The notes below the pieces were generated by a model. The model worked only from the letters and a program-made list of their open reading frames with translations, made no database searches and was not told the DNA's origin. Below are positions 7,337 to 44,267 of a stretch of 64,000 bases of DNA, one piece after another. Where the stretch lies: positions 103,020 to 167,019 of the forward strand of contig NZ_RCOG02000011.1 in the NCBI RefSeq assembly GCF_009663685.2, given 5' to 3'. Each line of letters starts with the position of its first letter. Position 1 is the stretch's first letter. The stretch is from Cupriavidus sp. U2 (GTDB taxonomy: Bacteria; Pseudomonadota; Gammaproteobacteria; Burkholderiales; Burkholderiaceae). The translations under genes were made by a program, and so were the position numbers.

Positions 7337-10510
<3,174 letters not shown>

Positions 10511-10557
10511 CCCGGGCCGGCCGCGCCTGCTTGCGGGAGGGGCCGGGCAAAAAGGCG

Positions 10558-10583
10558 GGGGAAAGAGGCCGGGGAAAGAGGCC
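10558..10583 (+). repeat. 13-bp perfect tandem duplication
   Basis: GGGGAAAGAGGCC occurs twice head to tail between the convergent czcA and VOC genes. It shows no dyad symmetry or T-tract, so it is not an obvious terminator. Confidence 0.7.
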
Positions 10584-10592
10584 GGCCAAACC

Positions 10593-11003
10593 TCAATGCT
10601 CGCAGTTCACCATCCAGGTCATCTTGAACTTGTCGACCACCATGCCGAAGCCTTCGGCCCAGAAGGTCTTCTGGTACGGCATGATGACCTGTCCGCCTTC
10701 GGACAGCGCATCGAAAATGCGCTTGCCTTCGGCGTTCGGCACGTAGCCTACCGATAGCATGAAGCCCGAAAACGCCGGGGTCTGTCCTTCCCGGCCGTCC
10801 GACGCCATGATCTGGCTATCGCCGATCTGGACGTTGGCGTGCATGACCTTCTCGGCCCATGCCGCCGACGGCGGCTCGCCGCCGCCCGGCGGAGTGTCCT
10901 TGTAGCGCATCAGGAATGTCACCTTTGCGCCCATTACCTGGCCATAGAAGGCCATGGCCTCGTCAAAGCGTCCGCCAAAGTCTAGATACGGTTGCACCTG
11001 CAT
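10593..11003 (-). CDS. VOC-family (PhnB/glyoxalase-like) protein
   Basis: Protein of 136 residues in the PhnB/3-demethylubiquinone-methyltransferase-like branch of the vicinal oxygen chelate superfamily. It begins MQVQPYLDFGGRFDEAMAFY and contains MHANVQIGDSQIMASD and the C-terminal FGMVVDKFKMTWMVNCEH, both characteristic. The substrate is unknown; many such proteins are annotated only as VOC. The ATG is preceded by AGGAGACC on the minus strand, which decides it over an in-frame upstream start. It lies between czcA and the sensor kinase, convergent to the former. Confidence 0.8.
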   Translation of the reverse strand: MQVQPYLDFGGRFDEAMAFYGQVMGAKVTFLMRYKDTPPGGGEPPSAAWAEKVMHANVQIGDSQIMASDGREGQTPAFSGFMLSVGYVPNAEGKRIFDALSEGGQVIMPYQKTFWAEGFGMVVDKFKMTWMVNCEH

Positions 11004-11049
11004 GTCGGTCTCCTGTAGGGTCCGCGGACGGATAGCCCGCGCGGCGCCA

Positions 11050-12534
11050 TTATGCGCCTGCCCTGCTGACAGAATTGTCAGGAAACTCGAGTTCGAAGCG
11101 GGTCTGTTCGTCGACACTGGTCACCGACACGCTGCCGCCGTGCAGCCGCATGATCGTGTCGACAATCGCCAGACCGAGCCCCGTGGAGCCCGACGAATTC
11201 CGGCGCGACGGATCGGCGCGGTAGAAGCGCCCGAACAGGTGCGGCAAGGCATCGGCCTGGATCGCCGGGCCGCCGTTGGTGACAGTGATCGCGGTCACGT
11301 CGGTGCCATTGCGGGCCACCGCCATGCGCACCGCACTGCCCACCGGCGCATGACGCAGCGCGTTGTCCAGCAGGTTGATGATGGCGCGGCGCAGCAAGGT
11401 CTGGTCCGCCACGACCGTGGCGTGGCCCGAGACCATCACCGTCAGGTTCCTGTCGGCCGCCACAGCCTCGAAATACTCGGCCACCTTGTCGAGTTCCGCC
11501 CGGGCATCAAGCGGGCGGGCGCCCAGCGCCACCTGTGCGTTGTCCGCGCGCGCCAGAAACAGCATGTTCTCGATCATGCGCGACAGGCGCTCGTACTCTT
11601 CCAGGTTCGATTCAAGCACCGCCTCATACTCAGCCGGCGTACGGCGCTGGGCCAGCGTCACCTGCGTCTGCCCCACCAGGTTGCTGATGGGCGTCCGGAA
11701 ATCGTGCGCCAGATCGGCCGAGAATTGCGACAGGCGCGTGAAGCTGTCCTGCAGCCGGGCCAGCATGCCGTTCAGCGCGCCGGCCAGGTCACGCAGTTCT
11801 TCGGGCGCGCCGCCGACATCGAGCCGCGTCGCCAGGCGGCTGGTGGTCACTGCCGCCGCATCGCTGGCCATGCGCCGCAACATGCGCAGCCCGCGCCGCG
11901 CCAGCACGAAGCCGAGCGCCGCCGCCACGATGGCCCCGCACAACACCGCGCCCAGCAGTTCGCCCCGATACTCGCGCATCAGCGCCACCCGGTAGCCAGC
12001 GTCGCTGAGCACGATGATTTCGACGGTCCGGCCCGTGTCGCCAATCTGGCCCAGCGCGGCCATGCCGCGCGACGGCACGCCATTGCGCGGATGCCAGGTC
12101 TGCAACTGCGACTTGTCCGGGGCCGTGGACAGCGGCAGCACACGCAGCGGCGGCAGGGTTTCGTTATGGGGATTCAGCGAGATCAGAGGATCGCCCGACG
12201 CGTTGCGGACGACCAGGATCAGCCCCTCGTGCCCCATCGCAATATCTGCAAAACGATGCGTATCGGTGCGGATTTCGGTTTCGTCGGCCACTTCGCGCAA
12301 CAGATGGCGTACCAGCAGCACTTCGCCGACGAGTTCGGATTCGTCACGCGACTGCAACTGGCTGCCAAGGGCGCTGGACAGATAGGTGGCCACCCCGACC
12401 AGGATCGCGGCCGTGGTCAGGCCATAGGCCAGCGCAAGCCGGGTGGTCAGCGACGCCGGCATCCACGCCTTCAGCGCGCGCCGCATGCGCACGAGGCGCC
12501 TCATGCTGCGGCGCTCACGCTTCTTCCGACTCAT
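11050..12534 (-). CDS. Heavy-metal sensor histidine kinase (CopS/CusS/CzcS family)
   Basis: Membrane sensor kinase of about 494 residues: first TM ([21 protein letters not shown]), periplasmic domain of roughly 150 residues, second TM ([19 protein letters not shown]), HAMP linker, dimerisation/phosphoacceptor helix [15 protein letters not shown] with the H-box His, N-box DNALRHAP, and the G-box [11 protein letters not shown]. The chosen ATG overlaps the regulator gene by 20 bases; another ATG at 12504 leaves a 10-base gap and is equally possible. The partner regulator is immediately upstream. Its position between czc and the copper cassette implies metal sensing, but the ligand cannot be told from sequence. 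Confidence 0.88.
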
Positions 12535-13192
12535 CGAGCACGTAGCCCATGCCACGGCGCGTATGAATCAGCTTCTTCGGGAAAGGGTCGTCCACCTTGG
12601 CGCGCAGCCGCCGAATCGACACATCTACCACATTGGTATTGCTGTCGAAGTTCATATCCCACACCTGCGAGGCGATCAGCGAGCGCGACAGCACCTCGCC
12701 ACGACGCCGCGCCAGCAGTTGCAGCAGCGCGAATTCCTTCGACGTCAGGTCGATTTTCTGGCCGGCACGCGTGACGCGGCGCCGGATCGTGTCGATCTGC
12801 AGGTCTGCCACTTCCATGAATTCGCTCTCGCGCAGCGGCCCCCGGCGCAGGATGGTGCGGATGCGCGCCACCAGTTCGGCGAACGCGAACGGCTTGACCA
12901 TATAGTCGTCGGCGCCCAGTTCCAGACCCTTGAGGCGATCCGAGAGTTCGTCGCGCGCGGTCAGGCACAGCACCGGCGTGTCCTTGTCGCGCCGCAGTTC
13001 GCGCAGAACCTGCCAGCCGTCGATGCCGGGCAGCATCACGTCCAGGACGATCAGATCGTAGTGCTGTTCGCGGGCATGGGACAGGCCGTCCACGCCGTCG
13101 CGCGCCAGGTCGGCCACGAAGCCGGACTCCGTCAGGCCCTTGAGCAGGTAATCGCCGGCCTTTGGTTCGTCTTCGACAATCAGGATACGCAT
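12515..13192 (-). CDS. Heavy-metal response regulator (CopR/CzcR/IrlR type)
   Basis: OmpR/PhoB-family regulator of 225 residues. The receiver domain has acidic residues VEDEP and phosphoacceptor Asp51 in [14 protein letters not shown], plus the conserved Lys in DYMVKPF. A C-terminal winged helix ([30 protein letters not shown]) binds DNA. It overlaps its sensor kinase gene and diverges from the copper cassette. Likely targets are the TGACA-N5-GTAAT-like boxes upstream of czcI and of the neighbouring divergent gene. Confidence 0.9.
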
Positions 13193-13290: not shown

Positions 13291-13305
13291 ATTGCAGGAA
13301 TGTCA
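13291..13305. promoter_or_regulatory. Candidate response-regulator box between the regulator gene and the copper cassette
   Basis: ATTGC-AGGAA-TGTCA is one mismatch from the reverse complement of TGACA-N5-GTAAT. It sits in the divergent spacer, so it could serve both directions. On the plus strand a -10-like TACAAT (13340-13345) follows 34 bases downstream, about one helical turn further than in the czcI promoter. Confidence 0.5.
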
Positions 13306-42253: not shown

Positions 42254-43570
42254 TCAGGCTGGCACCTGCGTCCCGCCCCGCTCGCCGGCAAAGGCCCGTT
42301 TCGATGCGGCCACATGGTTCGCGAACACCGGCCTCAGCACCGTGAACGCCAGGAACGCGGCCAGCAGATCCATGGTGGCCACGGTATAGAGCACCGTCGA
42401 CCATGTGCCGGTGGCCTCCATCATCAGATTGCCGATCGGCACGAACAGCGCGCCAATCCCCTTGGCCGTGTAGAGCACGCCGTAGATCTTGCCGATGTGC
42501 TTGGTGCCGAACGCATCGCCGGCCAGCGCGGAGAACAGCGAGTAGACCTCGCCCCACGCCAGGAACACCACGCCCGACAGGATCAGGAACGCGTACGGAT
42601 TGCTGCCGAAGTAGCCCAGCGCGATGATCCCGATCCCTTCCAGCGAGAACGCGATGACCATCGTCTTCTCCCGGCCGATGTTGTCCGAGATCCAGCCGAA
42701 CAGCGGCCGCGAAATGCCGTTCATCACGCGGTCGAGCATCAGCGCCAGCGGCAGCGCGGCCATCGTGAAGAAGTAAAGGTCAACCTTGAACTCCTTGACG
42801 CCCAGATCCTTGGCGATCACGCCCAGTTGCGCCACGGCCATCATGCCGCCGGTGACCACCAGCACGAACATGACCAGCATCAGCCAGAACAGCCTGGTGG
42901 CCAGCGCCTCGCGCAGCGTGTAGTCGCGCGTGGACTGGTAGATCTTGCTCGATGCCTTCACCTCGCTGGCCTGCGGCGCACGCAGGAACCAGGCGGCCAT
43001 GAACGCCAGCGCGCCCTGCAGGATGCCGAAAAACAGGAACGTGTGCTGGAAGCCCTGCGATTCGATCATCGCGGCGATCGGCAGGATGGTGGCCGCCGAA
43101 CCGGCTCCGTAGCCGCCGGCCGTCAGGCCCACGGCCAGCCCGCGACGGTCCGGGAACCACTTGATCGCGTTGTTGATGCAGGTGGCGTAGATCGAACCCA
43201 CACCCAGCCCGCCCACGGCGGCGCCCACGTAGAAGCCCATCAGCGTGGTGGCCTGCGAATTGATCACCCAGGCAAACCCGATGAACAGCGCGCCAAACGC
43301 CACCATCAGGCGCGGCCCGAATTTATCGATGAAATACCCCTCGATCGGTGCCAGCCAGGTCTGTACCAGCACGAAAATCGTAAAGGCAATCTGGATATTG
43401 GCGCGAGACCAGCCAAAGGTGTCCTGAATCTCGGGCACGAATAGCGTCCAGGCGTACTGGATATTCGCCGTAGCGATCATGCAGACTACGCCTACCAGCA
43501 ACTGGAACCAGCGTTTGCTTTCGGAAACCTGTGGATTGGGGCGCAGGGCCCCGGTCGGTGCGTGAGTCAT
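42254..43570 (-). CDS. OFA-family MFS transporter (oxalate/formate antiporter type)
   Basis: Twelve-TM major facilitator of 438 residues close to OxlT-like carriers: RWFQLLVGVVCMIATANIQYAWTLF, the motif A region FIDKFGPR, GIGVGSIYATCINNAIKWFPDRRG-type signature (read here as VGGLGVGSIYATCINN then WFPDRRG), and SDNIGRE between the halves. It probably exchanges oxalate for formate or carries a related dicarboxylate across the inner membrane. A long AT-rich upstream region with repeats suggests elaborate control. A 33-codon reading frame ends in an ATGA overlap with this start. No oxalate-degrading genes are in the window. Confidence 0.85.
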   Translation of the reverse strand: MTHAPTGALRPNPQVSESKRWFQLLVGVVCMIATANIQYAWTLFVPEIQDTFGWSRANIQIAFTIFVLVQTWLAPIEGYFIDKFGPRLMVAFGALFIGFAWVINSQATTLMGFYVGAAVGGLGVGSIYATCINNAIKWFPDRRGLAVGLTAGGYGAGSAATILPIAAMIESQGFQHTFLFFGILQGALAFMAAWFLRAPQASEVKASSKIYQSTRDYTLREALATRLFWLMLVMFVLVVTGGMMAVAQLGVIAKDLGVKEFKVDLYFFTMAALPLALMLDRVMNGISRPLFGWISDNIGREKTMVIAFSLEGIGIIALGYFGSNPYAFLILSGVVFLAWGEVYSLFSALAGDAFGTKHIGKIYGVLYTAKGIGALFVPIGNLMMEATGTWSTVLYTVATMDLLAAFLAFTVLRPVFANHVAASKRAFAGERGGTQVPA

Positions 43571-43668
43571 TGCGCGCTCCCTGTTGTCGTGGTGTGGTCT
43601 GCAATGTATGGGGATGCGGTTCGATACACGGGCACCGTGCGCCCGAACCGTAATATGGTCGCCTGCAT
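43567..43668 (-). CDS. Candidate 33-residue leader/small protein coupled to the OFA transporter
   Basis: A short frame starts MQATILRFGRTVPVYRT after a strong ACAGGAGACACGCAA ribosome-binding site and ends TGSAQ in an ATGA overlap with the transporter gene. It has no TM segment or known motif. The good start signal and coupling argue that it is translated, either as a leader that opens the transporter start or as a small protein. It could still be a chance frame. Confidence 0.4.
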   Translation of the reverse strand: MQATILRFGRTVPVYRTASPYIADHTTTTGSAQ

Positions 43669-44117
43669 TTGCGTGTCTCCTGTTTCATCGTTCTTGTTGT
43701 TTTGGTCTTCCGGTTTCGCGTGTGAAACCCATTTGCGCAGGACCGCCATTGCTCGAACCACGAGTTGGTACCGAATGCGCGCCAGAACCCTTGTCCAGCC
43801 TTGGTTTCCGGGTAATTCACCGACTGGCTATTCGCTTTTCATCTGAAATCTCCTCGATATCGAAAATACCCGAATGAATGACAGGTTTGTAATGTTCACC
43901 GACATTTGTGGATGACAAAAATGTAATGTTCGCCGTAATGTTCAACGTAATGTTCGCGTAATCCGCAACGCGACAGATACAAGGTATGTGATATACCAAC
44001 ATAGTCAAGCGAAAGCGGGGAGAGGGTTTTCACCACCCCGGAATCCTTATTCATTACCAGGGCCAATGAAAAATCGGCCATTAATCATTGCGATGCATTC
44101 ATGGCCGGAAAATGGAC
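43669..44117 (-). promoter_or_regulatory. AT-rich regulatory region upstream of the OFA transporter
   Basis: This stretch is clearly richer in A/T than the surroundings and holds no convincing gene; three frames of about 60 codons lack start signals. It contains four copies of GTAATGTTC (43889, 43923, 43935, 43947; the last three exactly 12 bp apart) and the inverted repeat GGTAT-GTGAT-ATACC (43983-43997), a layout resembling GntR-type operators. Control of the transporter is inferred. Confidence 0.5.
43889..43955 (-). repeat. Iterated GTAATGTTC (GAACATTAC) repeats
   Basis: Four perfect 9-bp copies in the same orientation, three with 12-bp period as GTAATGTTC-N3. They sit about 330-380 bases upstream of the transporter start. 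Iterons of this type are typical of multi-protomer regulator or replication-initiator binding; no replication gene is nearby, so regulation is more likely. Confidence 0.7.
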
Positions 44118-44207
44118 AAAAAAAAGCCCGCAGGCTAGCACAGGCGGGCGGAGGCGTGATGCGTGACACCAGTTCGCAACACGTAGGCTCTATTTATAGG
44201 TGATCTT
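44118..44207 (-). ncRNA. Candidate ~90-nt small RNA with intrinsic terminator
   Basis: On the minus strand a regulator box TGACA-AAATT-GTAAT (44253-44267) is followed 33 bases later by a -10-like AATAGA (44214-44219). About 90 bases downstream comes a GCCCGC/GCGGGC hairpin (44126-44149) ending in eight U. No start codon with a ribosome-binding site lies in between. The order box, -10, short unit, terminator is that of a small RNA. The transcript ends 450 bases before the transporter, so it is not its leader. Confidence 0.4.
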
Positions 44208-44252
44208 TTAACGTCTATTTGTCATTCGAGGGTTTTCTCTTAATCGCGGAGC

Positions 44253-44267
44253 ATTACAATTTTGTCA
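44253..44267 (-). promoter_or_regulatory. Perfect TGACA-N5-GTAAT heavy-metal regulator box
   Basis: TGACA-AAATT-GTAAT on the minus strand matches the CopR/CzcR box seen upstream of czcI. The only element downstream at promoter distance is the candidate small RNA. The box lies 30 kb from the metal genes. Confidence 0.5.

Follow-up and report, generated by a model that had tools for sequence, protein, structure and literature searches.

The double-hairpin RNAs of the Betaproteobacteria toxic small RNA family (RF02278), which include ncS03, ncS05, ncS27 and ncS62 of B. cenocepacia, are described in the accessible text of their report as very short and independently transcribed, with two hairpins, a 3' terminator and a CU-rich unpaired stretch (PMC5688073). 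The same text centers the predicted targets of the B. cenocepacia RNAs on ribosome sites and records that overexpression of ncS27 attenuates growth (PMC5688073). Among metal-responsive regulators, CusR, CopR and CzcR have one palindrome in common, and the CopR consensus of P. aeruginosa is CTGACAn5GTAAT; the targets given in the available part of that source are copper- and zinc-response genes (PMC11195947). Small RNAs have been associated with metals in C. metallidurans, where the text available lists 35 candidates, eleven of them changed by copper, a set placed beside the present RNA by description only (PMC7563307). A possible zinc-regulated small RNA is raised for P. aeruginosa, with none named in the part of the source available (PMC5083921). 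In Neisseria meningitidis, the metabolic genes affected by knockout of the small RNA Bns1 include one for an oxalate/formate antiporter; the likeness is one of description, the accessible text not stating that Bns1 adjoins the antiporter (PMC4423775). Among the matches listed in a partial coverage of the literature (titles and the beginnings of abstracts), none reports that an oxalate/formate antiporter gene of the Burkholderiales has a small RNA next to it.

The window analyzed here is a 64,000-nucleotide stretch of DNA from Cupriavidus sp. U2. Judged from its sequence, a minus-strand intergenic stretch within it very probably encodes a small non-coding RNA of ∼70 nt (Table 1). Like the RF02278 RNAs, this candidate is very short, with two hairpins, a 3' terminator and a CU-rich unpaired stretch, and would be independently transcribed. 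Unlike them, it is bound to one gene neighborhood. Boxes with the sequence and spacing of CopR/CusR/CzcR sites accompany it, but whereas the published targets belong to the copper and zinc responses, the boxes here lie around the genes for an oxalate/formate antiporter and the candidate RNA.

Table 1. Features of the small RNA locus and the antiporter region (window coordinates)
Feature	Position	Strand	Basis or detail
Small RNA gene, ∼69 nt	44118..44186	-	start placed from the -10 element
5' hairpin	44155..44183	-	paired strands 44183-44175/44163-44155; UGUC within the loop, 44174-44164
CCUCC linker	44150..44154	-	unpaired in the predicted fold
Intrinsic terminator with 8 T	44118..44149	-	stem 44149-44144/44131-44126; 8 T at 44125-44118
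-10 element TATAAAT, RNA promoter	44192..44198	-	sequence match
GAGAAAACCC element, RNA promoter, ∼-48	44230..44239	-	90% column identity, nine close loci
CopR/CusR/CzcR-type box TGACAAAATTGTAAT, ∼-74	44253..44267	-	0 mismatches
Second box TGACAAAAATGTAAT	43913..43927	+	motif search
Third box TGACAGGTTTGTAAT	43879..43893	+	motif search
GTGAAAACCC element upstream of antiporter promoter	44024..44033	-	sequence comparison
Antiporter promoter TTGACT-16 nt-TACCTT, GGTATATCACATACC across the spacer	43981..44008	-	read by eye; TTGACT 44008-44003, TACCTT 43986-43981
33-codon leader ORF, AGGAGACA ribosome site	43567..43668	-	TGA overlaps antiporter ATG
Oxalate/formate MFS antiporter, near-constant RNA partner	42254..43570	-	TIGR04259 575.5 bits, cut-off 335

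The box, the -10-like element and the terminator with eight U noted in the preliminary description of this region are all present on the minus strand. Its unit of ∼90 nt shrinks to a predicted transcript of ∼69 nt when the start is placed from the -10 element. The lack of a start codon holds for ATG, and the GTG/TTG frames inside the predicted RNA are just 8 to 17 codons long, two of these running past its 3' end. The fold of 44118-44187 comprises two hairpins at -24.2 kcal/mol (z-score -2.44), a stability reached by none of 200 shuffled sequences. TATAA is kept at the place of the -10 element in 25 of 27 loci of the genus and in 50 of 52 further loci, five weak unlinked matches being left out. 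The exact sequence GAGAAAACCCT occurs twice in the genome and its control not at all; the GAGAAAACCC-type element alone is at chance level in the window, with three matches at ≤1 mismatch versus 1.9 expected. A generic scan found a single terminator-like site, where shuffled sequence would give 3.8, and detected no sigma-70-type promoter for the RNA, its sole promoter-like site (0.9 expected) lying elsewhere on the plus strand. Such a scan would not pick out the RNA, so the pattern of signals by itself is weak evidence and the case is carried by comparison. The opposite strand has a 71-codon GTG frame (43988-44203) that overlaps the RNA; nothing was found to suggest that it is a gene.

Column identity across nine close loci, that of the window among them, reaches 95% in the RNA and 90% in both the box and the AAACCC element, versus 57% in the upstream and 67% in the downstream flank of the RNA. 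Conservation therefore peaks over the RNA and is not confined to the terminator; such confinement was what the preliminary description had named as speaking against a small RNA. A 176-nt query matches 29 of 60 genomes of the genus at E ≤ 0.001, mostly over just the segment from about the -10 element to the terminator. In a structure alignment of 28 of 30 rows (L026 and L030, which look like gene-end terminators, were dropped), 87.5% of the cells of the 5' helix are paired and six of its nine pairs carry two-sided changes. None of 500 shuffles equals the observed paired percentage (92.5 versus a mean of 89.0), covariation score or count of two-sided changes. Sliding the helix register leaves only one or two pairs with two-sided changes; one of the five measures, further pair types, does not rise above the shuffles, 492 of 500 reaching it. 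The six counted pairs of the terminator stem show one-sided changes at most. The GUC columns of the loop and the CUC columns of the linker are conserved across the alignment, whose consensus fold consists of two hairpins only. Covariance model R1 has a match at E ≤ 0.001 in 43 of the 60 genus genomes, scoring no less than 50 bits in 39, and in 156 of 398 genomes of the family, many of these matches being weak. A promoter signal, the lack of an open reading frame, a terminator of its own and a conserved structure, the general marks of an intergenic bacterial small RNA, thus all appear to be present. Conservation, compensatory changes, and promoter and terminator signals belonging to the RNA itself lend strong support, at the level of sequence, to the small RNA put forward in the preliminary description.

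At the RNA, no Rfam model scores as high as its cut-off. The best Rfam match, which spans the full model, is to the atoC RNA RF01733; its score of 18.1 bits (E 0.54), where the cut-off is 50, is at chance level. RF02278 gives no match at its 50-bit gathering threshold in the window or in the loci of nine relatives, and the RNA is not among the 13 genome matches to it at E ≤ 1. Two RF02278 copies above cut-off lie elsewhere in the genome (C3:97538-97602 and C16:3959-4018); these start with TGTCTCCTCC, which the antiporter-linked RNA lacks.

The most constant feature of the surroundings is the antiporter gene. The preliminary description had placed the RNA away from any gene and missed this neighbor, which lies downstream on the same strand, as an ortholog, in all 27 relatives of a first set within the genus, while other neighbors vary. 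The same order and strand recur in 51 of 57 further loci, comprising all other listed matches of at least 39 bits, the remaining genus matches of at least 50 bits and some weaker ones; of the six unlinked loci, one is at a contig end and the other five score 27-37 bits. Inspection covered eight of the 12 listed matches of 33-39 bits and, below 33 bits, L150 and L151. RNA-bearing loci lie in Cupriavidus, Caballeronia and Paraburkholderia-like genera (the name Paraburkholderia is a deduction). The antiporters behind the RNA are of two types, 83-98% and 46-51% identical, and two loci of the ∼50% type also match TIGR04259, at 633 bits each. In a crude clustering of open reading frames from the 27 loci, no other family stands beside the RNA in more than five, leaving aside a frame antisense to the antiporter that does so in six; the choice of frames was such that the antiporter itself was picked in just 19 of 27.

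Presence of the RNA follows presence of the antiporter ortholog. An ortholog of at least 84% identity occurs in 44 of the 60 genus genomes; 39 of the 44, and none of the 16 others, have the RNA at 50 bits or better (Fisher 1.4e-10, for genomes that are related and not independent). Twelve of the 16 have only more distant antiporter paralogs. Weak model matches of 26-37 bits appear in four, and the best match in G016, the sole one inspected from these genomes, has no antiporter beside it. Four of the five ortholog-bearing genomes without the RNA, from C. gilardii, C. cauae and a Cupriavidus MAG (L160, L162, L164 and L165), have a decayed or missing copy; the fifth, G035, gives no RNA match. None of the Cupriavidus antiporter paralogs of 42-53% identity goes with an RNA match at or above 50 bits, which means that not every antiporter is accompanied by the RNA. 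A search beyond the family, over 80 named antiporter loci, returned 23 strong RNA matches of 65-88 bits in Ralstonia, Cupriavidus and Caballeronia and two weak ones in Cupriavidus (23.7 and 20.5 bits), the remainder scoring at most 17.3 bits. Two more TIGR04259 paralogs, with a LysR-type regulator gene between them, lie 8 kb past the window (C23:175030-179667); this pair has no R1 match at E ≤ 0.001.

The boxes are concentrated in the same region. TGACAAAATTGTAAT has four matches at ≤2 mismatches in the 6.45-Mb genome, with none for the backwards control, and four at ≤3 mismatches in the window versus 0.11 expected. Over the 27 loci, the pattern T[GT]ACAN4TGT[AC]A occurs 39 times in the 26.3 kb bounded by the antiporter start and a point 350 nt upstream of the RNA core, versus twice in 401 kb of flanks (backwards 0 and 0). 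At least one box falls in this region in 20 loci and none in seven; in 13 of the 27 a box lies ≤130 nt upstream of the RNA core, and 10 of 11 additional genus loci have one in the 200 nt upstream of the RNA. The stricter TKACAN4TGTMAT marks seven distinct sites in the genome of the strain itself (backwards control 0), three of them (43879, 43913 and 44253) within one 0.84-kb intergenic region; another precedes a heavy-metal response-regulator domain by 86 nt (C28), and three lie elsewhere. Five genes of this genome score above the TIGR01387 heavy-metal response-regulator cut-off. In three, a box with ≤1 mismatch starts 95-119 nt upstream of the domain start, the fourth has a site at -197 and the fifth has none. 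The TIGR01387 regulator of the window is one of the three, with a 1-mismatch box upstream at 13292-13305.

With the C that precedes it, the box fits the P. aeruginosa CopR consensus, and it resembles the E. coli site TGACAAnnTTGTCAT, as both are given in the accessible part of the source (PMC11195947). This fit and the palindrome that CusR, CopR and CzcR share make the regulator class well supported, and the binding site expected in a CopR/CusR/CzcR regulon appears to be present. Since boxes of this class also recur at heavy-metal response-regulator promoters, it is plausible that a CopR/CusR/CzcR-type regulator controls the RNA in Cupriavidus. For the heavy-metal two-component control proposed in the preliminary description, the box is of the right class. 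In all 41 Caballeronia/Paraburkholderia-like loci, a box is absent within 200 nt upstream of the RNA.

Some further sites and genes bear on metals or formate in their own right. At 7349-13192 of the window, a gene read by eye as a CusA/CzcA-like RND pump adjoins those of a sensor kinase and a TIGR01387 response regulator. The box at 11067, within the 3' end of the sensor-kinase gene, was not counted as a promoter site. A 2-mismatch box at L064:5042-5056 precedes a formate dehydrogenase-N alpha frame by ∼240 nt and gives a second link to formate; the frame scores 258 bits before an in-frame TGA, under the whole-protein cut-off of 814.

With moderate confidence, we favor a model in which the locus is a stand-alone gene for a ∼69-nt double-hairpin small RNA, set within the regulatory region of the antiporter. 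In Cupriavidus, a CopR/CusR/CzcR-type response regulator would act on the intergenic boxes and so couple expression of the RNA to that of the antiporter, and a second factor may bind GAAAACCC, an element found upstream of both the RNA promoter and the antiporter promoter in the window. The RNA would act after transcription, probably with Hfq because of its eight-U tail, and likely works by base pairing in trans. Its UGUC loop, its CUC(C) linker or both may pair with messages of organic-acid or one-carbon metabolism, and such pairing might, as a guess, adjust these messages to the state of oxalate/formate transport. Against this model stands the position of the box, whose center at ∼-74 is far from -35, and GAAAACCC taken alone is no more frequent in the window than chance would give. 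The locus would define a small-RNA family that no Rfam model recognizes at these loci, anchored to oxalate/formate transport in soil and plant Burkholderiaceae; oxalate use helps one species to colonize roots, according to the available text (PMC3886118). It also provides a specific connection, open to experiment, between oxalate transport and a regulator site of the heavy-metal type. A tentative extension, which we regard as rather unlikely, is that a metal-sensing two-component system of Cupriavidus drives both antiporter and RNA from the boxes of a single intergenic stretch, coupling metal stress to the transport of metal-chelating acids, with the RNA re-tuning formate and oxalate metabolism. 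The RNA family would predate this metal wiring, because it is present without the upstream box in Caballeronia and Paraburkholderia-like genera.

A different weighting of the same evidence would make the RNA a trans-acting, metal-responsive regulator, induced by Cu/Zn through CopR/CzcR and directed at metal-related targets, with linkage to the antiporter secondary. The fit of the box to the CopR consensus and its occurrence at three of the five heavy-metal response-regulator promoters of the genome speak for this explanation. However, other genera keep the RNA without the upstream box, and the constant partner is an oxalate/formate antiporter rather than a metal gene, and we consider this alternative unlikely.

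The region between the terminator and the antiporter bears on whether the RNA could instead be part of the antiporter message. It contains a predicted promoter for the antiporter (Table 1), whose core fits a strict regular expression in 63 of 79 loci, with AAA(A)CCC fitting in 65 of 79. An attenuator or riboswitch-like leader, in which transcripts would stop at 44118 and read through with a ligand such as oxalate or formate, would be in keeping with the fixed order and strand of RNA and antiporter in all linked loci, as in cis-regulators, and with an RNA that stands ahead of both antiporter types, as a cis element would. Such a leader calls for the sole promoter of the gene to lie upstream of the element, however, and this appears not to be so: the conserved promoter lies between terminator and antiporter and is kept in the four Cupriavidus loci with a decayed or missing RNA. 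In addition, the consensus fold offers only two hairpins, and the distance to the antiporter varies from ∼130 to 670 nt, with 2.1 kb in one genome. We rate a leader as quite improbable; given the conserved promoter, the RNA is best read as a separate unit.

A pairing partner of the RNA was sought at the antiporter and its leader. The RNA pairs no more favorably with their ribosome sites than with 183 other sequences that resemble ribosome sites: the mean percentile is 0.61 in Cupriavidus, the two remaining groups having 0.58 and 0.65, and none of 75 loci falls in the best 5% (75 of 79 loci scored, against a background that includes some antiporter starts, with accessibility left out). Helices formed by the loop alone average 5.8 versus 5.7 for the background in Cupriavidus and are slightly longer elsewhere, at 6.6 versus 5.7 (35 loci) and 7.0 versus 5.2 (3 loci). 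Loop pairings noticed by eye, GUGUC/GACAC in one clade and AUGUC/GACAU in another, failed both the ribosome-site and the loop-only tests. A decoy, an insulator or a dead-end transcript, in which the terminator shields the antiporter promoter and the hairpin stabilizes a by-product, would account for the lack of a target in these tests and for the place of the RNA just upstream of that promoter, but insulation has no need of compensatory changes in the 5' hairpin, of the conserved loop GUC and linker CUC or of a dedicated -10 element, and we hold this to be very unlikely.

The antiporter has features of its own at its start. The 33-codon leader ORF has no Pfam match, and it is possible that it is translationally coupled to the antiporter. 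By eye, comparable short ORFs can be seen ahead of the antiporter in many loci of Cupriavidus. In L098, L101, L103, L160 and L162, short frames starting with ATGGAAA upstream of the antiporter resemble, again by eye, the N terminus of the ∼50% type, as if the RNA-promoter cassette had once driven a paralog of that type and a different antiporter had been placed behind it later. Finally, tandem GAACATTACG-type repeats at 43880-43974 of the window overlap the second and third boxes, and their copy number varies among close relatives.
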